A program made the position numbers and the translations under genes. DNA of 40,387 bases. Source: Chitinophagaceae bacterium UBA7600. Lineage in GTDB: Bacteria; Bacteroidota; Bacteroidia; Chitinophagales; Chitinophagaceae. Shown here piece by piece: positions 4,886-39,115 of this stretch. The stretch covers positions 1 to 40,387 of the forward strand of contig DLKC01000074.1 in the NCBI GenBank assembly GCA_002478885.1. Reading direction: 5' to 3'. Under the pieces are notes generated by a model. That model made no database searches. It was not told the origin of the DNA and worked only from the letters and a program-made list of their open reading frames with translations. Position 1 is the first letter of the stretch, and every line of letters starts with the position of its first letter.

Positions 4886-4968
4886 ATTTTTCTTATCGAT
4901 TTCTGCAAATGTCTAAAGCATTTTTTCGAGATCTTGTTACCCGGCGTCCGCCTGTCTGTTGAACTGAT

Positions 4969-5076
4969 GTTGTGTCACGCACTTCAGGGTTCAGAACCAT
5001 ATTGAACAGGGAACAAATTGCCTTCCGGCTTTTTGCGTTGATGCCATGGTTGCTTTAGCACAAGTGAGCGACGCAA
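4969..5076. repeat. Inverted pair of dispersed intergenic repeats
   Basis: The left copy GTTGTGTCACGCACTT (4969-4984) faces the right copy GCACAAGTGAGCGACGCAA (5058-5076). Reading both inward, TTGyGTCrCnCACTT matches at about 12 of 15 positions. The pair lies in the 235-base gap between the GH3-family gene and the phosphatidyltransferase and has the same geometry as the clearer element at 16999-17154. Confidence 0.5.
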
Positions 5077-5120
5077 GTAAAGCTGCATAGCGTTGTCAAA
5101 GCCGGGTACATATAAGTTGG

Positions 5121-11694: not shown

Positions 11695-11714
11695 GCACAG
11701 CTGTGCGACGCAAC
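11695..11714 (-). repeat. Dispersed intergenic repeat copy with palindrome
   Basis: GTGCGACGCAAC (11703-11714) is the repeat core in minus orientation. It overlaps a perfect 12-base palindrome GCACAGCTGTGC (11695-11706). The copy lies between the LytTR regulator and the GH172 gene. A matching palindrome GCACACGTGTGC occurs in the nuoD-nuoH copy. Confidence 0.55.
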
Positions 11715-11813
11715 TAATGCCCGATCCTGTTCAGCAGCGTGGCTAAAAATATCTCTCCCTGAGAAAGTCTACATGCTTTATCTTTAAGTTCATCATTTCT
11801 TAAAACACAGCAT

Positions 11814-12968: not shown

Positions 12969-13331
12969 AAACGTTGTAAACCCGGCTTCAGTGCAGCCGG
13001 CATCGCCCCTTACACTTGTTCCGGGAGAAAAGATGCCGATCGAACAATTGTGCCCTGGAACAAGTACAGGCGTTCCGGCACATCCTGCAGTCGGGGGCGC
13101 TTTGCCGCGCATTGTTGTTGCCGTACAAGAGTGCGACGCAACAACAGCCAGGGCAAGCACTGCCGCCCGGGCCATACCCTTTTACTTCCCCGGATAGTTA
13201 ATCACTTATATAAGCACAGGCAGGTTTTACTGACTACAATCATCTTTAAAATTGATGACCGTCATACCCGTTGCTTGTCATTCATTTTACTTTAGCCCTT
13301 TGTTTGTGATCACCTTTAAACTAATTTTTTC
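12969..13331. other. Intergenic region upstream of nifJ, 363 bases, filled with repeats
   Basis: No convincing gene. Most of 12982-13142 is a dispersed repeat element. Short frames across it are produced by the repeat's GC-rich composition. Near nifJ there is a perfect 8-base palindrome GTGATCAC (13306-13313) about 20 bases before the start codon, and a TACTTTAG (13288-13295) that is one base from the TAnnTTTG -7 box but has no correctly spaced TTG. Confidence 0.5.
12982..13142. repeat. Composite dispersed repeat element
   Basis: Starts with the CCGGCTTCA...GGCATCG module (12982-13004), continues with a degenerate hairpin module GTTCCGGGAGAAAAGAT (13018-13034) and ends with a strong core copy GTACAAGAGTGCGACGCAAC (13123-13142). 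That last copy is the exact reverse complement of 16999-17018 over 20 bases. It also sits inside a local hairpin, GTTGTTGC (13114-13121) pairing with GCAACAAC (13138-13145). Confidence 0.65.
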
Positions 13332-16925: not shown

Positions 16926-16957
16926 AGGAACTGCTGGAAAAGCAGTTCCTTTTTTTA
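16926..16957 (+). terminator. Intrinsic terminator after nifJ
   Basis: A perfect 10-bp stem, AGGAACTGCT (16926-16935) with AGCAGTTCCT (16941-16950), a 5-base loop GGAAA and a run of seven Ts directly after. It starts 22 bases beyond the nifJ stop codon. Confidence 0.92.
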
Positions 16958-16998
16958 TTTAATGATGAAGCCGGCATCTGTATTTCAATCAAACACCT

Positions 16999-17154
16999 GT
17001 TGCGTCGCACTCTTGTACTGCAGAAAAACCAGGAGCAATAAGCTGCTCGCCACGCCCCTTAAGTGAACATCAGTTATGCACACTTTAGTTGCGGTTATAT
17101 ATCCGGCAACAGCGGCCGCCGCCCGCAGTTCAACAGTACAAGTGTGCGACGCAA
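16999..17154. repeat. MITE/REPIN-like element with 26-bp imperfect terminal inverted repeats
   Basis: The left end (16999-17025) begins GTTGCGTCGCACTCTTGTAC and continues TGCAGAA. The right end (17129-17154) read inward is TTGCGTCGCACACTTGTACT, then GTTGAA. From the shared TTG the two arms match at 23 of 26 positions. The interior (about 100 bases) has no coding potential that I can see. This is the best example of a family of about 15 intergenic copies in the window; no transposase is nearby. Confidence 0.75.
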
Positions 17155-17217
17155 GGAACGATGAGCAGCATTGTTCAGCCGGTTAAAAAATAGACAATCG
17201 CTTATACAAAATAAGAA

Positions 17218-20063: not shown

Positions 20064-20192
20064 CATGAATCAATCAGCACATTGATTAAAATCATGTTTT
20101 TATAAAACAAAATGAGGTAAAAATAACAGCCTGTGTCCGGTGCTTTGTATAAGTGCTTTTGTAACCGGCTGCAGTATCCAAATGGAGCTTTG

Positions 20193-20212
20193 GTTGTGTC
20201 ACTCCCTTGTAC
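20193..20212 (+). repeat. Dispersed intergenic repeat copy
   Basis: GTTGTGTCACTCCCTTGTAC fits the family core GTTGYGTCRCnCnCTTGTAC. Its first 16 bases are the exact reverse complement of 34473-34488. It lies between ppdK and the end of the nuo operon. Confidence 0.65.
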
Positions 20213-20368
20213 GTTCAGTACAGTAATCAGCCGGCTGTATAAGAACAAAAAATGCGTTTGAAAGACTGTAGAGGGCTGTTATGCACACAAAATGAGTAAC
20301 ACAACCCAGCCTGCGTGGCGGAGTCAGGCAGAGAAGTTGCCACGAAGTACATCGGCTGGCAACAATGA

Positions 20369-22216: not shown

Positions 22217-23713
22217 TTATTTTATTACTCCCAAAATTTTAGTCATAATGGCTGCTGTGCCCGGGTTGATCAGGTCTTTCAAAAGAAAAGGCGTTATACC
22301 AATGATCAATACGCCAACAATAAGTAAACCCGCGGCAAGCCTTTCATTCCAGCTGGCATCGGTGAACGACAGATGTGTTTTGTCCACGATCGGTCCGTTA
22401 ATCACTTTCCCTGTAGCACGTAAAATATACACCGCGGTCACTACGATCGATGCGCAGGAAAGAATCGTGGCAATACGGTAATAACTGTCGGCATTTTCCC
22501 ATGAACCCATAAACACCGTCATCTCGGCGACAAAACCACTCAGCCCCGGCAACCCCAGTGAACACAGACCGGCGATTACAAATACGGTCGATATAAATGG
22601 CATCACTTTCAGCAATCCGCCAAGCCTGGCAACTTCTCTCGTATGCGCCCTTTCGTAGATCATGCCTATCACGGCGAAGAAAAGGGCGGTCATTAAACCG
22701 TGAGAAACCATCTGCAGCACTGCTCCGTCAATCGAAGTCTTGGTAAGCATGCCAATACCCAGCAACACAAAGCCACAGTGGCTTACCGAAGAATAAGCAT
22801 TGATATATTTAAGATCCGTCTGCATCATCGTGGCAAAGGCGCCATATAAAATAGCGATGCAGGACAAGGCAACTATAATCGGTGAATACTCGTGCGCTGC
22901 CGCCGGCATCAGAAAAGTCGCTACCCGCAAACAACCATATCCTCCCAGCTTCATCGAAATCCCGGCAAGAAACATCGATGCCGCAGTTGGGGCAGACGAG
23001 TGCCCGTCCGGCACCCAGGTATGAAAAGGGAACAATGCAGTGAAAACACCAAAACCAATAAAGGCGAATGGAAAAAAGAGTTCCTGCACATCAACGGGAA
23101 TATTCACCGCCGATAATTGTGTAATATCAAAACTGTGCGCCCCGTTTACATCCGTATTAAAATAAACACCGGCCAGCCCAACGAAAACCAATGCAGATCC
23201 ACCCATCAGCATCAATGCCAGCTTCATGGCACTGTATTCTTTTTTGCCGCTGCCCCAGATGCCGATAAGCAGGAACTTTGGTATTACCGCTACCTCAAGG
23301 AAGAAAAACAAAGTAAAGAGGTCAAGCGAAATAAAATAACCATAGGCGCCCAGGCTAAGGAAGATCAGCAAAAAGAAAAACTCCTTGTTCATCTTCTCCA
23401 TCTTCCACGAAACCAGCACCCCGGCAAGTACTACAAATGCGGTAAGCAGGATCATGGCAATGGAAATGCCATCAACGCCAATATGATAATGAATATTCAA
23501 CGCCGCGTACCAGCTATAATCATCCTCAAAAAGAAACGCAGCGGTGTTGCCCGAAGCGCGTTCCTGTAAATAAGCAAACAATAAAAATCCGCAGAGCAGG
23601 AACTGCACGGCGGCACCAGCCATGGCAATCGCTCTCACCTGCTTTAGGCCTTTTGCAGGCAATATCCCCAGCGCGGTGATCAACGGAACAATCAGCAGTA
23701 ACGATAAATTCAT
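22217..23713 (-). CDS. nuoM: NADH-quinone oxidoreductase subunit M, lacking the TM7 lysine
   Basis: A 498-residue antiporter-like subunit of complex I. Conserved features present: Glu140 in FFFLEVAVIPKFLLIGIWG (TM5), Lys255 in LAGISMKLGGYG (TM8) and Glu397 in LSGFVAEMTVFMGSW (TM12). The TM7 lysine, found five residues before the P-[FL]-H-x-W motif in E. coli NuoM, is Phe224 here (GFGVFTALFPFHTWVPDGHS). NuoL and NuoN of the same operon keep theirs. From memory, NuoM proteins of most Bacteroidota have a WQPDTY-type motif at this place, so this is a different subtype. Separated from nuoL by a 106-base gap holding a repeat element. Confidence 0.94.
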   Translation of the reverse strand: MNLSLLLIVPLITALGILPAKGLKQVRAIAMAGAAVQFLLCGFLLFAYLQERASGNTAAFLFEDDYSWYAALNIHYHIGVDGISIAMILLTAFVVLAGVLVSWKMEKMNKEFFFLLIFLSLGAYGYFISLDLFTLFFFLEVAVIPKFLLIGIWGSGKKEYSAMKLALMLMGGSALVFVGLAGVYFNTDVNGAHSFDITQLSAVNIPVDVQELFFPFAFIGFGVFTALFPFHTWVPDGHSSAPTAASMFLAGISMKLGGYGCLRVATFLMPAAAHEYSPIIVALSCIAILYGAFATMMQTDLKYINAYSSVSHCGFVLLGIGMLTKTSIDGAVLQMVSHGLMTALFFAVIGMIYERAHTREVARLGGLLKVMPFISTVFVIAGLCSLGLPGLSGFVAEMTVFMGSWENADSYYRIATILSCASIVVTAVYILRATGKVINGPIVDKTHLSFTDASWNERLAAGLLIVGVLIIGITPFLLKDLINPGTAAIMTKILGVIK

Positions 23714-23760
23714 AAAATATTTTTGATACCAGCTTTAGTAATACCCATCAACTTTGCTTA

Positions 23761-23810
23761 CGCCTGTCCCGGGAGAAGCGATCCGGGATCACACGCTTGT
23801 ACTGCGCAAC
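23761..23810 (+). repeat. Dispersed repeat element (hairpin module plus core) between nuoL and nuoM
   Basis: CGCCTG precedes a hairpin: TCCCGG (23767-23772), loop GAGAAGCGAT, CCGGGA (23783-23788). This runs into the family core GGGATCACACGCTTGTAC (23785-23802) and ends TGCGCAAC. The outer pair is T-A here but C-G in the copies at 28341 and 37242, a compensatory change. It occupies most of the only gap between nuoL and nuoM. Confidence 0.7.
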
Positions 23811-23819
23811 CCTTATCAG

Positions 23820-25754
23820 CTATTTCCACCAATACAAAAACACAACCGCCAGGGTAACAATGCCTCCAAAAAAATACAAGGCGTAGGCCTGCACTTTACC
23901 TGATTGCAAACCTTTTATCATGGCCGAAATGTCTGCAGTAATATTTGCCGAAGCATTCACCAGCCCATCAACCACGTTCCGGTCGATCCATGCGGCCGGC
24001 CTGCCTATCAGATTGAAAATAATTTTCTTTGTAAAAAAGAGGTAAACCTCGTCAATATAAAACTTGTGATAGGCTGCTCTATAAAGACCTCCCAGCGATG
24101 CGGCAACTTTCTGTGGTTTATCGGTTTCCCGTTTGTACATCACCCATGCCAGCATAATGCCCGCCAGGCCAAACAGCACGGGTGCAGCAGAAAATACAGG
24201 ATCAAATTGCGATTCAAGTGCTTTACCATCCGATGACACAAATTCTCCAAAATGAATAAAACCTGCACCGGCTGAACACAAAGCCAGGATGATCAATGGT
24301 ATTTTCATACTCATCGTTCCCTCGCCATGATCGTTGTGATGATGAAAGTCTTTCTGTTTGTTCCAGAAGATAGAAAAATACAAACGGAACATATAAAAGG
24401 CTGTGAGGCCTGAGGTAAACAACGCTTCCCCATATACCAGTTTATTGCTGTTATATGCGGCAAGTAATATTTCTTCCTTGCTAAAGAAACCTGCCAACGG
24501 CGGAACACCGGCAATGGCCAGGCAGGCGATCAAAAAACAAATATTGGTGACCGGCATAAATTTTCTCAGGCCACCCATATCTTTCATTTCATTGCTATGC
24601 ACCAAATGGATCACCGCGCCTGCGCAAAGGAACAGCAGCGATTTAAAGAAAGCATGGGTAAACAAATGGAACATCGATGCGGTATAACCTAGGCCGTTCT
24701 CGCCACCATAACCCGAAACACCTAAGGCGAACATCATATACCCGATCTGCGACATGGTGGAATAGGCCAATACGCGCTTAATATCTGTCTGTGTGCAGGC
24801 GATCACGGCGGCAATCAGTGCCGAAACCAAACCCACATAAGTTACAACGGTCAGGGACGCCTGTGTTAATGTAAACAAGGGGAATAACCTCGCTACAAGG
24901 TAAACACCAGCAACAACCATGGTTGCCGCATGGATAAGGGCCGAAACAGGTGTAGGGCCTTCCATGGCATCGGGTAACCAGATGTGTAACGGGAACATCG
25001 CCGATTTGCCGGCGCCGCCCATAAATACAAGACACAGCCCCCACGATAATGCAGATACGCCAAACAACGATGCGGTAGAAATGGCTAAAAATTCAGCAGA
25101 CTGTTGCTGCGTTAACTTTTGAATAAGTGTACCAATATCCAGTGTGCCGCCATAATAGGCAAGCACCAGGATGCCAATCAAAAATCCCAGGTCGGCAAAC
25201 CTGGTAACAATAAATGCTTTCTTCGAGGCTGCAACAGCAGACGGTTTATCGTAATAATAGCCGATAAGCAAATAAGAAGAAACACCAACCAGCTCCCAGA
25301 ACATATACACCTGGAAAAGATTGCCGGAGACAACCAATCCAAGCATCGAAAAGGTAAAAAGCCCAAGGAATGCATAATAGGTGGAGAACCGTTCTTCTCC
25401 TTTCATATAGCCGAGGCTGAAAATATGCACCATCAGGGAAACAAAGGTTACTACCACAAGCATCATCACCGATATGGGGTCGAGCACGATACCCATATCA
25501 ATGCTGACATTATCAGAAAATGAAAGCCACGTAAATTTAAAAGCGGTGATAGATTGATATTGGTCTCCAACTTTCCCATCGACAAAGAAATAATGGTAAG
25601 CAGTATACAAAGCCAGCACGGCAGCAACAAGCAACAAACCGGTTCCTATAATTCCCGAAGCGTTCTTCAGGTATTTTCTGCCAAACAATCCCAGCAACAC
25701 GAAGCCGGCCAGGGGCAGTATGGGAATCAATGCTATGTAGGAAGAATAGCTCAT
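23820..25754 (-). CDS. nuoL: NADH-quinone oxidoreductase subunit L
   Basis: A 644-residue distal antiporter-like subunit of complex I with ~16 helices. Glu154 (MFWELVGVSSYLLIGYYY) and Lys250 (GGAGKSAMFPLHIWLPDAMEGPTPVSALIHAATMV) are the TM5/TM7 proton-pathway residues; FHLFTHAFFKSLLFLCAGAVIH and AGVPPLAGFFSKEEIL are also family hallmarks. The C-terminal ~100 residues contain the lateral helix region and a last membrane segment (ALYFFGGIVTLAVVFLYWW). It starts eight bases after the nuoK stop. Length is normal. Confidence 0.96.
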   Translation of the reverse strand: MSYSSYIALIPILPLAGFVLLGLFGRKYLKNASGIIGTGLLLVAAVLALYTAYHYFFVDGKVGDQYQSITAFKFTWLSFSDNVSIDMGIVLDPISVMMLVVVTFVSLMVHIFSLGYMKGEERFSTYYAFLGLFTFSMLGLVVSGNLFQVYMFWELVGVSSYLLIGYYYDKPSAVAASKKAFIVTRFADLGFLIGILVLAYYGGTLDIGTLIQKLTQQQSAEFLAISTASLFGVSALSWGLCLVFMGGAGKSAMFPLHIWLPDAMEGPTPVSALIHAATMVVAGVYLVARLFPLFTLTQASLTVVTYVGLVSALIAAVIACTQTDIKRVLAYSTMSQIGYMMFALGVSGYGGENGLGYTASMFHLFTHAFFKSLLFLCAGAVIHLVHSNEMKDMGGLRKFMPVTNICFLIACLAIAGVPPLAGFFSKEEILLAAYNSNKLVYGEALFTSGLTAFYMFRLYFSIFWNKQKDFHHHNDHGEGTMSMKIPLIILALCSAGAGFIHFGEFVSSDGKALESQFDPVFSAAPVLFGLAGIMLAWVMYKRETDKPQKVAASLGGLYRAAYHKFYIDEVYLFFTKKIIFNLIGRPAAWIDRNVVDGLVNASANITADISAMIKGLQSGKVQAYALYFFGGIVTLAVVFLYWWK

Positions 25755-27068: not shown

Positions 27069-27122
27069 TTATGCTTATTAAGATTTTGCTGTTCAGCTTA
27101 TGTGCCGGGCAGCGGACAAACC

Positions 27123-27142
27123 GTACAAGTGTGCGACGCAAC
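27123..27142 (-). repeat. Dispersed intergenic repeat copy between nuoH and nuoI
   Basis: GTACAAGTGTGCGACGCAAC is a full 20-base core in minus orientation. It differs at one base from the copies at 13123 and 16999. It occupies the centre of the 139-base gap between nuoH and nuoI. Confidence 0.75.
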
Positions 27143-27207
27143 GGCAGCAACAGCAAGCTGCTGGAGTTGGGTACACAAAAACCATTGAACAAAAGAACTT
27201 TTACGAT

Positions 27208-28287: not shown

Positions 28288-28330
28288 GGGTTTGTGTATT
28301 TTAAATTATGTTGCCAGCTTTTGACCTGCT

Positions 28331-28387
28331 GTTGCGCCTGCCCCGGGAGGAACGATCCGGGGTCGCACACGTGTGCGCCTGTTGCAC
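28331..28387 (+). repeat. Dispersed repeat element (hairpin module plus core) between nuoD and nuoH
   Basis: The hairpin is CCCCGG (28341-28346), loop GAGGAACGAT, CCGGGG (28357-28362). It runs into GGGGTCGCACACGTGTGC (28359-28376), which contains the perfect palindrome GCACACGTGTGC (28365-28376). TGCGCCTG occurs on both sides (28333-28340 and 28374-28381). It fills nearly half of the gap where nuoEFG would be in a 14-gene operon. Confidence 0.7.
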
Positions 28388-28409
28388 AGAGCAGTTTTGC
28401 TTCCCGTTA

Positions 28410-29552
28410 TTACCTGTCGATATCGGGGATAACAAGATCAAGCGTTCCCATCATTGCCACAAAATCACCAATCTTGCTTCCTCTCGCCATATGATCCAAA
28501 GCGCTCAGGTTGCTATAGCCCGGCGATCGGAATTTGATCCGGTAAGGCGTTGTGCCGCCTTCACTCACGATGTACACACCAAACTCACCTCTTGCCGTTT
28601 CTATCCTTGAATAATATTCTCCTTTGGGCAGTTTCAAAACAGCTTTTGTTTTCGCTTGTATCTCGCCTTCGGGTATGTTATCAATCAGTTGTTCTATAAT
28701 AGAGATCGATTGGTTCATCTCCTCCATTCGTACGAGATATCTTGCATAGGAGTCACCACCTGTTTCCGTTACTTCTTTAAAATCAACTTTATCATAAACC
28801 TCGTAAGGATAAAGCTTTCTTATGTCGCAGCTAACACCGCTACCTCTTGCAGCGGGGCCACTCATGCCAAATGAGATCGCATCTTCTTTGGAAATATAGC
28901 CTACGCCCTTCATGCGGTTTTGAAAGATCACATTGTTGGTGAGCAGGTCATTGTATTCATTCAGCTTGGACTTAAAATGCGTAAGAAAGGTTTTTACTCT
29001 TCTAACAAAATTGGGGTGCAGGTCGGCCATCACGCCACCCGGTACCATATAGTTCATGGTTAACCTGGTGCCGCAGGTTTCTTCAAAAATATCGTTGATC
29101 ATTTCGCGTTCGCGGAATGCATGGAAGAAAGGCGTTAAGGCACCTACATCCATCCCCATAGCGCCCCACCAAAGCTGGTGCGAAGCAAGCCTGGTCAATT
29201 CATCCATCAACACGCGAATCACCTGCGCACGTTCCGGTACTTCAATCTGCATACCTTTCTCTACACACAAACAGCAACCATGATTATTGATATGCGAAGA
29301 GAGATAATCCATTTTGCTCGTTACATAAATAAACTGGCGGAAACTCAGGCTTTCGCACATCTTCTCAATAGAACGGTGTATATAGCCAAGATGCGGTTCT
29401 ATTTTTTTAATAGTCTCTCCATTCAGCGTAATAAGCAGGTGCAACACACCGTGTGTGGACGGGTGCTGCGGACCAACATTAATGACCAGGTCGCCATTGA
29501 CGTCGGGCCCGTTTATGACCGGCTGTTTTATTATGGTTGTTTCGCTGTACAT
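28410..29552 (-). CDS. nuoD: NADH-quinone oxidoreductase subunit D (49-kDa type)
   Basis: A 380-residue peripheral subunit that forms the quinone-binding site with NuoB and is related to the large subunit of NiFe hydrogenases. Landmarks: VNVGPQHPSTHGVLHL-type N-terminus (NVGPQHPSTHGVLHLLITL), EPHLGYIHRSIEKM, the conserved DYLSSHINNHGCCLCVEK, and the C-terminus MGTLDLVIPDIDR. It is not fused to NuoC, unlike in E. coli. The start overlaps the nuoC stop as TAATG, so translation is coupled. Confidence 0.96.
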   Translation of the reverse strand: MYSETTIIKQPVINGPDVNGDLVINVGPQHPSTHGVLHLLITLNGETIKKIEPHLGYIHRSIEKMCESLSFRQFIYVTSKMDYLSSHINNHGCCLCVEKGMQIEVPERAQVIRVLMDELTRLASHQLWWGAMGMDVGALTPFFHAFREREMINDIFEETCGTRLTMNYMVPGGVMADLHPNFVRRVKTFLTHFKSKLNEYNDLLTNNVIFQNRMKGVGYISKEDAISFGMSGPAARGSGVSCDIRKLYPYEVYDKVDFKEVTETGGDSYARYLVRMEEMNQSISIIEQLIDNIPEGEIQAKTKAVLKLPKGEYYSRIETARGEFGVYIVSEGGTTPYRIKFRSPGYSNLSALDHMARGSKIGDFVAMMGTLDLVIPDIDR

Positions 29553-32011: not shown

Positions 32012-32116
32012 AGCAATCGTTTTGGCTTTGAAAATAAGCGTTTCCATTTATTCCGGGTAATTTTTTTGTTCCCGTCTTTCATACAAATGGCATTGTCTCC
32101 TGTACCTGCAGCTCAG

Positions 32117-32130
32117 GTGTGCGACGCAAC
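32117..32130 (-). repeat. Dispersed intergenic repeat copy
   Basis: GTGTGCGACGCAAC (32117-32130) matches the core in minus orientation; the outer half is GCTCAG instead of GTACAA. It lies between the divergent isomerase-like gene and the ene reductase. Confidence 0.6.
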
Positions 32131-32178
32131 GGAAGCCCGGGCAGCGGTATAAAAGGCCGGTCCAAAAATTTACAACCC

Positions 32179-34261: not shown

Positions 34262-34355
34262 GTGACAATTTTCAAAGTAATCGAATAGGGGAAACTACAA
34301 ATAAAGAAGGGAATTGTTTGTATGGGCCTGGCTTTTGTACTGCTATGAAGCGTTC

Positions 34356-34488
34356 GTTGTGCCACTCACTGCATCGTTCTGAACATTGATCAGCAAACGT
34401 GAGCTGTGAACGACAGACGCCAGGATACTCACGTCTCACGTTTCACGTCTGACGACAGCTGCATGGCAGCATAAGGGAGTGACACAAC
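34356..34488. repeat. Inverted pair of dispersed intergenic repeats
   Basis: The left copy GTTGTGCCACTCACT (34356-34370) faces the right copy AAGGGAGTGACACAAC (34473-34488); read inward, 13 of 15 bases match. The right copy is the exact reverse complement of 20193-20208. A CTTTTGTACTGC fragment lies just left of the pair. The interior contains the CACGT repeats at 34395-34456. Confidence 0.6.
34395..34456. repeat. Imperfect inverted repeat with tandem TCACGTn units
   Basis: AAACGTGAGCTGTGA (34395-34409) is matched in inverted orientation by TCACGTCTCACGTTT (34429-34443), 13 of 15 bases. The right arm consists of three 7-base units TCACGTC, TCACGTT, TCACGTC (34429-34449) plus a degenerate TGACGAC. 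It lies inside the paired repeat at 34356-34488. Confidence 0.6.
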
Positions 34489-34527
34489 AGGCGATGCCAT
34501 AGGCACTGTAGTTTGTCAACAAAAAAT

Positions 34528-36666
34528 CTATGCTTTAAAAACATCCTCGGCACTGAATGGCTGGTTGCGCAAGCGCTTGCCCGTTGCTTTAAAAATAGCA
34601 TTCGCAACGGCACCGCCGGTTGGCGGCAGGGCTGGTTCACCCAGGCCCGTTGGGTCAATCCCGTTATCAACAAAATGTGGTTCTACTTCGGGTATCTCCT
34701 TCATACGGATGATGCGGTAATTGTTGTAATTCTTTTGCTCCGATGCCCCATCCTTAAAAGATATTTTTCCATACATCGCATTGCCATAACCATCAACGAT
34801 CGCACCCATCACCTGGTGGCGTGCACCGCTTAGGTTGATGACTTGCCCGCAGTCTGATACTGCATAGATTTTCTTTACGGCGGGTTTGCCTTTTTCCATC
34901 ACCACTTCACAAACCTGCGCAACATAACTCTGGTGAGAGAAATACACGCTGAAGCCCTGCGCAACATCCTTCTTTGTGCCCCAGCCTGATTTTTCCGCGG
35001 CTGTTTTTATTACAGTCACCATGCGGTCGATATTGTACTTGATGGCGCCGACCGGTTTTTGTTTGGCCTTTGCAAGCAGGTCGAGCCTGAATTGCACCGG
35101 GTCTTTGCCGGCAGCCATGGCCACCTCGTCCAAAAATGTCTGTTCTGCAAAGGCAAGGAAATTAGTGATCGGTGCCCGCCATGCACCGGTGGTGATCGGC
35201 GAAACATATTCCACGTTCTCAATAAGCAAATGATCAACAGCGCCCGACGGAAAATTATCTTCCCTGGTACTGTTGCCCGCATTGATGCCAACACCCCGCA
35301 ATTGATAGCCGACGAGATTGCCGGAACCATCCAATGCCGCCTTAAACCGGTAACGCACTGCCGGCCGGTAACTGCCACCCTGCATTTCGTCTTCCTTGGT
35401 CCACATCACCTTTACCGGTTTCTTGATAATGCCCGACAATTCCGCTGCTTCTACCACGTAATCGAACTTGAGCCTTCTTCCGAAACCACCGCCCAACCTC
35501 GTGATCTGCAGTGTGATCTTGTCTTCAGGCACATTCAGCATTTTGGAAACGGCCTCTCTTGCACGTGCCGGCGTTTGGCTCGGGCCGATCAGTTCAATGC
35601 CATCTTCCCGCACATGGGCAAAGAAATTCATCGGCTCCATAGGCGTGTGCACAAGAAAAGGGCATTGGTATTCCGCCTCAATTACTTTTGCCGCGCCTGC
35701 AAATGCTGCCTTTACATCGCCGTCTTTGCGTTGTACCGTTGCTTTGCCATTGTCATTATCCAAAAGGTCTTTTAATATTTTATCATGGTCTTCGCTGCTT
35801 TCGATATTGCCGTCTTTCTCATACTCGATCTTCAGCAGTTTTCTTGCTTTCATGATCGCCCATGTTGAGTTCCCCACAACGGCCACGTTGTTTTTAAACG
35901 TTACCACATCAACAATTCCCGGCGATGCTTTTGCAGCGGCGGCATCAACGGATTTTATTTTGGTGCCGAATGCCGGTGGCCTTTGGATCATCGCCATCGC
36001 CATACCATCACGGTAAAAATCTAACCCGAATAACGGTTTGCCGGTGATGATATTTTTATTCTCTACGTTGCGCACTGCCGTGCCGATAAGCTTAAAATCC
36101 TTACGGTCTTTCAACGGCACATCAGCCGGCGCCGTAAGGGCAGACGCGGCTGTTGCGAGTTCACCATAGCCAAGTTTTTTACCGCTCGGCCGGTGAATCA
36201 CAAAACCGTTTTCTGCATAGCAGGCAGAAGCATCAACCTGCCATTGTTGGGCTGCGGCCTGTATCAAAACATATTTTGCGGTGGCTCCTGCTTTTCTCAG
36301 CCGCATCCATGAATGGGGAACGGCACCACTGCCACCGGTGAGCTGCCGGTCAAACTTATTATCAAGCATGGCCTGCTCTACTTTTACTTTGGTCCAGTCG
36401 GCTTCCAGTTCTTCCGCCACTACCATGGGAAAAGATGTTTTGATATTCTGCCCTAACTCGGGGTTGGGCGAATAAATGGTAATGGTTCCGTCGGTAGCGA
36501 TTGACAGGTAACTGTTAAAGGCAAGGGTTTCTTTGGCATCCCCGCCCGCAACAACGGCCGCTTTTACACTGTTGTCAAACCAGTTAAAACCGATCAGTAA
36601 TCCACCGGTAGTTAGTGAACCGAGCTTAAGGAAATTTCTCCTGCTGGTTGTATGGGTAGTGTTCAT
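34528..36666 (-). CDS. iorB: Tat-exported molybdenum hydroxylase large subunit (isoquinoline 1-oxidoreductase beta-like)
   Basis: A 712-residue molybdopterin-binding subunit of the xanthine oxidase family, IorB/aldehyde dehydrogenase type. A twin-arginine signal is clear (TSRRNFLKLGSLTTGGLLIGF). Landmarks: IYSPNPELGQNIKTSFPMVVAEELEADW, FLVHTPMEPMNFFAHV, ITRLGGGFGRRLKFDYVVEAAEL, SPITTGAWRAPITNFLAFAEQTFLDE, and GLGEPALPPTGGAVANAI near the C-terminus with the probable catalytic Glu677. The substrate could be an aldehyde or N-heterocycle and cannot be chosen from sequence. It follows the 2Fe-2S subunit gene by three bases, so they form one enzyme; no third FAD subunit is present, so electrons probably leave through a cytochrome or other carrier. 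Confidence 0.93.
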   Translation of the reverse strand: MNTTHTTSRRNFLKLGSLTTGGLLIGFNWFDNSVKAAVVAGGDAKETLAFNSYLSIATDGTITIYSPNPELGQNIKTSFPMVVAEELEADWTKVKVEQAMLDNKFDRQLTGGSGAVPHSWMRLRKAGATAKYVLIQAAAQQWQVDASACYAENGFVIHRPSGKKLGYGELATAASALTAPADVPLKDRKDFKLIGTAVRNVENKNIITGKPLFGLDFYRDGMAMAMIQRPPAFGTKIKSVDAAAAKASPGIVDVVTFKNNVAVVGNSTWAIMKARKLLKIEYEKDGNIESSEDHDKILKDLLDNDNGKATVQRKDGDVKAAFAGAAKVIEAEYQCPFLVHTPMEPMNFFAHVREDGIELIGPSQTPARAREAVSKMLNVPEDKITLQITRLGGGFGRRLKFDYVVEAAELSGIIKKPVKVMWTKEDEMQGGSYRPAVRYRFKAALDGSGNLVGYQLRGVGINAGNSTREDNFPSGAVDHLLIENVEYVSPITTGAWRAPITNFLAFAEQTFLDEVAMAAGKDPVQFRLDLLAKAKQKPVGAIKYNIDRMVTVIKTAAEKSGWGTKKDVAQGFSVYFSHQSYVAQVCEVVMEKGKPAVKKIYAVSDCGQVINLSGARHQVMGAIVDGYGNAMYGKISFKDGASEQKNYNNYRIIRMKEIPEVEPHFVDNGIDPTGLGEPALPPTGGAVANAIFKATGKRLRNQPFSAEDVFKA

Positions 36667-37228: not shown

Positions 37229-37270
37229 CTGAAGGGAGTGACCCCGGATCGTTCCTTCCGGGGCAGGCAC
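37229..37270 (-). repeat. Dispersed repeat element with hairpin module, between M1 peptidase and iorA
   Basis: CCCCGGA (37242-37248) pairs with TCCGGGG (37257-37263) around TCGTTCCT. Read on the minus strand it is TGCCTG, CCCCGG, loop AAGGAACGAT, CCGGGG, then TCACTCCCTTC, which aligns over its full length with the copies at 23761 and 28335. Here the orientation is sense to the flanking genes, in nuo it is antisense. Confidence 0.7.
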
Positions 37271-37325
37271 AACAACAGCTGAATAGCTATTATGTTGCAG
37301 GTAACCAAAAAAATACCAGCAACAA

Positions 37326-38915: not shown

Positions 38916-39115
38916 AAAAAACAGTTTGTATAATGATATCAGGAAAGCATACAAGTTAACGAGTTTACACATGCGACGTTTCAACCAACCGCATCTTTGG
39001 ATAAAAGATTTAACTTGGGGTCCGGCCTGCAACCGGCCATTCTTCCCGGGGTAAGCGCAAAAGCTGCCTGGCGCACAAAAGCCGGGCCTATAAAAAAATT
39101 AAACTACATCGATCA

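Follow-up and report, generated by a model that had tools for sequence, protein, structure and literature searches.

The window, by which we mean the whole 40,387-nucleotide stretch of DNA analyzed, is contig C92 of a 5.47 Mb draft genome of the Chitinophagaceae. Between its POR and PPDK genes lies an inverted dimer of a repeat unit (16990..17165), the GTAC (5′) ends of which face inward. Both arms belong to the subfamily designated A below. The left arm (16956..17040, minus strand, nhmmer E 1.7e-14) includes the core at 16999–17018, and its A-tract end comes after the terminator of the upstream POR gene; the right arm (17120..17194, plus strand, nhmmer E 2e-12) includes the core at 17136–17155, and its A-tract end points toward the PPDK gene, whose end is 75 bp away. 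The cores themselves read on the plus strand at 16999 and on the minus strand at 17136–17155 and, from TTGCGTCGCAC on, the 26-base arms agree by reading at 23 positions, which confirms the inverted ends described in the original prediction for 16999..17154. That prediction listed 14 further places with the core. The unit profile matches at 13 of these and gives no match at position 3, at the contig edge; 10 of the 13 match at E ≤ 0.015, and at 23785, 28359, and 37229 a split in the core, revealed by palindrome searches, reduces the match to weak pieces (E 0.017 to 8).

All three of the proposed inward-facing pairs are present, at 4931–5117 (with a weak left arm), 16956–17194, and 34313–34531. 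The first consists of a degenerate left arm (4931..5008, minus strand, nhmmer E 0.015) and a right arm (5038..5117, plus strand, nhmmer E 5.2e-13) with its A-tract end 3 bp off a stop codon. The third has two arms of subfamily B (34313..34398, minus strand, nhmmer E 1.2e-07; 34448..34531, plus strand, nhmmer E 3.7e-09), and the A-tract end of its right arm overlaps the stop codon of a gene. Single units of subfamily A are located on the plus strand at 13101..13176 (nhmmer E 9e-12) and 27101..27186 (nhmmer E 5.8e-13) and one of subfamily B on the minus strand at 20149..20231 (nhmmer E 9.2e-13). The plus strand also carries a partial or diverged unit (11702..11755, nhmmer E 5.6e-07), a diverged unit (32101..32174, nhmmer E 5.7e-07), and a half unit comprising the A-tract end alone (39059..39101, nhmmer E 0.006). 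In three units, the core is split by a palindrome, that of the units designated class C: a degenerate unit at 23713..23822 (minus strand; half matches E 0.017 and 0.36; palindrome at C92:23769 with 2 mismatches) and two class C units recognized by palindrome searches at 28301..28392 (minus strand; core GTTGCG / TCGCAC, palindrome 28343–28361, weak half matches E 5.5 and 8) and 37232..37314 (plus strand; core GTTGTG / GTCACTC, palindrome 37243–37261, half match E 0.12).

The repetition of the core is real and far larger than originally noted. Within the window, GTTGYGTCRCNCNCTTGTAC has 10 matches at up to 3 mismatches as compared with 0.09 expected from shuffles; one of the 10 (33916) is within a gene and resembles chance. 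In the whole 5.47 Mb genome, TTGYGTCRCNCNCTTGTAC has 1511 matches at up to 2 mismatches versus 2 for the reversed control. Alignment of 114 copies from a 403 kb sample (four contigs plus the window) was used to define the unit, and in it conservation reaches well past the core, which is the middle of a unit of ∼80 nt with an A-tract at one end. Read with GTACAAG forward, the unit comprises a TTGCTG-rich 5′ end, GTACAAG, a TGYGACRCA palindrome, a variable middle, and GCCGGGTnCAAAAAA. The arm of 26 bases that had been predicted is thus present but belongs to a longer unit, and the core has three forms. A profile of the unit identified 157 units at E ≤ 0.01 in the sample and a single match, at E 0.15, in the reversed sample; its 5′ part is less conserved. 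Among 387 units from several genomes, the single strongly covarying complementary pair is in the core (C-G 283, T-A 102, T-G 2) and separates subfamily A, GTGCGACGCAA, from subfamily B, GAGTGACACAA. Since it behaves as one subfamily split, this pair is weak evidence for a hairpin, and no covarying helix was detected outside the core in the same 387 units. A stem TGTAC...GTACA beside the A-tract, at which the consensus hints, was rejected for its lack of covariation; a group II intron or intrinsic terminator, prompted by GTGCGAC and the T-run, was dropped by reading only, and Rfam has no match at the gathering score in the window.

The core is present at one mismatch in 156 of 294 Chitinophagaceae genomes, in 1 to 2386 copies. 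The control pattern has 1 or 2 matches in 15 of the 294 (counted by hand), so genomes with a single match may hold no real core. All 20 sites fetched from four low-copy genomes are recognized by the unit profile with E values no higher than 1e-10. Of 395 genomes searched at class level, 386 belong to other families, and in these the core is at chance level: 7 have one match each, and the control has 9 matches. The copy in one of these 7 (G537, locus L268) also matches part of the unit profile, at E 1.4e-5, and may be real. No match to the core was found in plasmid sequences. The exact core occurs in 46 stretches of viral contigs from IMG/VR (L319–L364); several of these lie within the same contig, so the stretches may represent host DNA wrongly assigned to viruses, or prophages together with flanking host sequence. 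In named genomes, the best relatives of the POR gene of the window are mostly from Chitinophagaceae and other Bacteroidota metagenome-assembled genomes.

Units less than 200 bp apart have a fixed arrangement, as the original prediction proposed. In the 403 kb sample, 32 of 33 such pairs have the 5′ ends inward, one has the 3′ ends inward, and none is in tandem; the corresponding numbers in genome G140, the most active relative, are 23, 2, and 1 of 26, all 6 close pairs of G069 face inward, and the 4 units of G268 are unpaired. Modeled as single-stranded DNA, the dimer at 16990..17165 has a much better fold than its shuffled versions (z −4.5). The other dimers of the window, at 34350 and 4960, have z scores of −2.2 and −0.7, and seven whole dimers from G140 fold weakly or no better than shuffles (z −1.8 to +0.6); two monomers are no better than shuffles (z −0.96 and −1.17). 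Dimers in G140 combine the two subfamilies more often than expected (17 of 22 versus 10.4, p 0.005); there is no such excess in the genome of the window (14 of 31 versus 13.5), and the numbers for G058 (2 of 4) and G069 (3 of 5) are too small.

Comparison of sites bears on the mobility of the units. One dimer has many copies in G140, of which 20 places were fetched, namely the dimer itself and 19 of its best further matches. The 19 match over 83 to 149 bp at 80–94%, with the spacer between the cores conserved and the flanks unrelated; inverted dimers with a conserved spacer have been dispersed as units in this genome. Orthologous sites with and without the element, a comparison suggested by the original prediction, were found between G140 and its congener G058: of 15 gaps, 5 have a unit in both genomes, 4 in G140 only, 6 in neither, and none in G058 only. 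The 4 G140-only gaps are longer by 58 to 123 bp, and the alignments of the gaps are too diverged to give exact unit ends; at one of the 4 "empty" G058 sites, part of an A-tract end persists, and a unit may have been lost there. At the sites compared, the ends are A/T tracts, and no clean target-site duplication was seen. Other sites are shared within genera, indicating that many copies are old: G090 and G218 have units at common sites beside ctaB/coxA and a TypA-like gene (names by reading), and one genus-conserved site has been kept together with its preceding terminator. A search for a gene family recurring beside units at 20 sites in G028, G218, G090, and G166 turned up, for the most part, orthologous sites and scattered paralogues, along with two Y1 genes.

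The units are closely associated with gene ends. In the 403 kb sample, 146 of 157 are outside open reading frames (ORFs) of at least 100 residues, which make up 86% of the sample. The prediction that all copies are intergenic fits the list of ORFs except that A-tract ends in some cases run a few bases into the end of a gene; a short mechanical ORF (28308–28610), opposite a longer gene, also overlaps a unit. Because ORF calling simply took the longest frame, a small number of placements could be in error. Stop codons are faced by the A-tract end in 82 cases, at a median of 6 bp, and start codons in 64 cases, at a median of 68.5 bp, and a T-run often begins right after the stop codon or after an intrinsic terminator. 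Among 50 genes that a unit abuts, 32% have TTTTT within 12 nt of the stop, as compared with 5% of 107 genes lacking such a unit; in G140 the values are 46% of 26 and 2% of 42. These figures indicate that the T-run is part of the unit. Intergenic regions of at least 80 bp in the sample contain units in 28 of 35 convergent, 66 of 129 codirectional, and 22 of 47 divergent cases. Singlets are divided about evenly between the two strands in the samples.

This bias toward convergent genes and the proximity to stop codons are in keeping with a different explanation, a selected gene-end element that is kept for an RNA or DNA function and whose spread is secondary. Singlets equal to dimer arms in conservation (permutation p 0.85, 0.90, 0.36, and 0.87 in four genomes, G058 having only 8 doublet arms) and the sites kept within a genus, one with its terminator, point the same way. 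We nevertheless regard it as unlikely, and likewise the candidate functions of transcript 3′-end formation, a barrier between convergent genes, or a nucleoid or topoisomerase site. Copy number ranges from 0 to 2386 in one family and is uneven even inside one genus; a unit is present at 4 of 80 POR loci and at none of those of the eight best-matching relatives (L034–L041, each spanning 8 to 14 kb); codirectional gaps hold the two orientations in nearly equal numbers (45:34); and, by reading, an A-run rather than a U-run follows the dimer hairpin. The lack of a covarying helix outside the core also speaks against it.

The dispersal of dimers into unrelated flanks, together with the inverted ends formed by their arms, would also suit a MITE of a conventional (DDE) transposon in which the units are terminal inverted repeats and the autonomous element has been lost or was not sampled. 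Like MITEs, the unit is small, noncoding, and dispersed. Unlike MITEs, isolated units are abundant and form the majority (90 of about 156 in the sample and 56 of 109 in G140), and as a group these singlets have no remnant of a partner, with the exception of a handful in the sample that score high. Neither a target-site duplication nor an autonomous, full-length copy was found, the genome-wide search being of Y1 families, so the MITE as originally proposed is not supported, and we judge a DDE origin improbable. A putative RNA-borne retroposon, in which an ∼80-nt RNA with a 3′ A-tail would be primed at gene ends and pairs would reflect priming from both sides, could account for an A-tract always at the same end, beside stop codons or terminator T-runs, and for late starts of profile matches (position 16 or later, 22 of 156) exceeding early ends (before 80, 8 of 156) in a profile with a less conserved 5′ part, but it is very hard to credit because T-runs are rare at unit-free stops, and hence not an evident pre-existing target, and dimers with a conserved spacer are copied as units.

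No transposase was found by Pfam among 9 ORFs of the window, and a whole-genome search with Y1_Tnp gave no match in its contig; the genome has three Y1_Tnp genes. The original prediction suggested looking for a Y1 (RAYT-like) or other transposase with matching ends, and no Y1 enzyme was found to be common to the high-copy genomes. The presence of Y1 genes does not track copy number: of the 24 genomes holding 50 or more copies, 19 have a PF01797 match, versus 221 of 294 overall, and 18 have a match, mostly distant, to the RAYT of the window's genome, versus 192 of 294 (the fractions of 24 were tallied by hand, with genomes absent from the match tables taken as having no match). G140, with 2195 copies, has no PF01797 match. 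This RAYT (C1:8354–8923) was also rejected as a general partner since, besides these fractions, the genome with its closest relative (G229, 83%) has no core match. An inward-facing unit is found on either side of it, the second of them weak (E 0.0058); given the high density of units in the genome, this location is weak evidence. Just past it (L033:2000–2360, C1) are tandem repeats of CGCACAAGACCC...AGTCTTGCGCTAGCG, 96 to 133 nt apart, that recur no more than once elsewhere in the 403 kb sample and are perhaps the RAYT's own cognate repeat. Eight Y1 genes of G188 and ten or more of G115 have identical or near-identical scores and are probably active IS200-like elements.

One group of Y1 genes is associated with the units. 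We collected 60 Y1 loci, each with flanks of up to 10 kb to either side, hand-picked from the listed PF01797 matches in genomes having 3 or more copies (G148 and G207 omitted), and built a tree from 59 of the encoded proteins (one short protein was dropped) and two Y1 proteins of the window's genome. A clade of 11 (L399, L400, L402, L403, L406, L417, L420, L425, L428, L431, and L440; support 100/99), singled out after the labels were seen, has a unit within 1.7 kb in 8 of 11 cases versus 4 of the 50 other rows (Fisher p 2.2e-5); it includes two congeneric pairs (G172/G099 and G218/G166), so the cases are not all independent. All 8 units have the 5′ end toward the Y1 gene. Near the 11 genes there are 8 units in 35.9 kb as compared with 2 in 162 kb farther away (p 3.7e-5), and the other 49 loci have no excess (7 in 165.6 kb near, 32 in 730 kb far, p 0.6). 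The clade was found in genomes of 5–104 copies and is absent from those with more than 1000. Its loci are also rich in palindromes of the GTTCC-N-GGAAC type, with 72 in 21 kb within 1 kb of the gene versus 11 in 177 kb far, and GGTAG lies no more than 16 nt from 29 of the 72. At the other 49 loci, the counts are 37 in 98 kb near and 11 in 798 kb far. At least two such palindromes are within 1 kb at 11 of 11 clade loci and 9 of 49 others. Outside the clade, G218 and G090 share a unit at one site, and in G218 alone a Y1 gene lies near its 5′ end, at a distance of about 75 to 100 bp. This difference fits either arrival of the Y1 gene next to a unit already in place or a loss from G090.

The class C cores link the units to a second palindrome. 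Cores split by CCGGRAGGAACGATYCGGG were found at 34 sites, at up to 2 mismatches, in the window's genome alone among 294, and this genome has 50 copies of the palindrome (control 0). Loci were fetched for 30 of the 50, and 33 distinct copies were read, some loci having more than one. Both halves of the unit core are kept in 26 of the 33 (one mismatch allowed per half), with the insert between GTTGYG and TCRC; it is 26 bp in 17 of 26 and 19 to 29 bp otherwise, and it occurs in both subfamilies. Copies at C72:7076, 8042, 8416, and 8789 flank one of the three Y1_Tnp genes of the genome (C72:7406–7849) within repeats of ∼373 nt, and one of these repeats also has, by eye, a half resembling that of a unit core; another site of the palindrome is C1:9411. 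A palindrome tied to a Y1 gene is therefore found at the center of the unit core.

Taken together, we favor, with a probability of roughly 0.6, a nonautonomous, REP/REPIN-like dispersed repeat of the Chitinophagaceae, found both singly and in inverted dimers whose 5′ ends face inward. Copy number, anatomy, the orientation rule, placement at gene ends, restriction to the family, dimer dispersal in G140, and site differences between congeners are the observed grounds for it. The units would spread by transposition in trans through single-stranded DNA, with the palindrome extruding as a hairpin, and purifying selection would retain copies just beyond stop codons and terminators. Y1 (HUH) transposases of the IS200/TnpA_REP superfamily would be the most likely enzymes: a Y1-linked palindrome is at core centers in the window's genome, and elsewhere one Y1 clade adjoins units in a fixed orientation.

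REPINs and BIMEs of Pseudomonas fluorescens SBW25 and Escherichia coli are likewise intergenic, of high copy number, and arranged as inverted doublets of fixed orientation. The heterodimers of G140 resemble those noted for GTAG-3 and CGTC-2/3 in the portion of PMC3733652 consulted. The likeness to REPINs and MITEs holds in copy number, intergenic bias, fixed inverted pairs, dimer dispersal, and presence or absence at sites; membership among REPs or REPINs is not supported. The unit is ∼80 nt and directional, the most active relative has weakly folding dimers, and no RAYT is tied to high-copy genomes. As compared with what the consulted portion of PMC3116915 describes for SBW25, doublet arms are not better conserved than singlets (p 0.36 to 0.90) and singlets lack partner remnants as a group, so that the REPIN as originally proposed is not supported. 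A REP of the GTAG superfamily has a palindrome of 20–40 bp with an unpaired GT[AG]G at its foot, whereas the unit has just a 7–9 bp palindrome (TGYGACRCA) and GTAC/GCAC at the position of the tag. The CGTC superfamily (Di Nocera et al. 2013, PMC3733652), reported from Bacteroidetes with no dedicated transposase reported in the portion consulted, is similar in that CGTC and TGTC alternate in the core; unlike in those repeats, they are inside the core palindrome, with no 8–9 bp stem beside the tag in the two monomers folded. Y1 genes of TnpA_REP subclasses 1.2 and 2.6 of Bacteroidetes are, in the consulted portion of PMC6006769, also flanked by palindromic repeats. By motif only, the linked clade (DHLH ... 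YIQNQExHH) resembles subclass 1.2 and the RAYT of the window's genome (YIHNNP) subclass 2.6; the table in that portion gives "no" REP for subclass 1.2, in contrast to the palindromes at 11 of 11 loci of the clade. No description of the family was found in open-licence PMC papers, where strings of the core occur only in papers of seemingly unrelated title, consistent with the original view that it is not a described one.

The units may further serve as landing pads for Y1 (HUH) elements in a nested, two-level repeat system, a suggestion that we hold tentatively. The Y1-linked palindrome would have inserted repeatedly at the center of the core palindrome in the window's genome, and elsewhere Y1 genes with palindrome arrays of their own would settle at the inward (5′) end of a unit. 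If this is true, hairpin-apex targeting of one repeat by another becomes directly testable, as do REP-type repeats in a Y1 subclass that has been regarded as lacking them. The split cores log the insertion sites of other elements and thus constitute a natural assay for hairpin-directed insertion. The family departs from the REPIN model in two respects, since its singlets are not evident remnants and rich genomes have no dedicated RAYT. The repeat occupies about four fifths of convergent gaps in the sample, exceeds 2000 copies in some relatives, and shapes gene ends and genome evolution in a widespread family.
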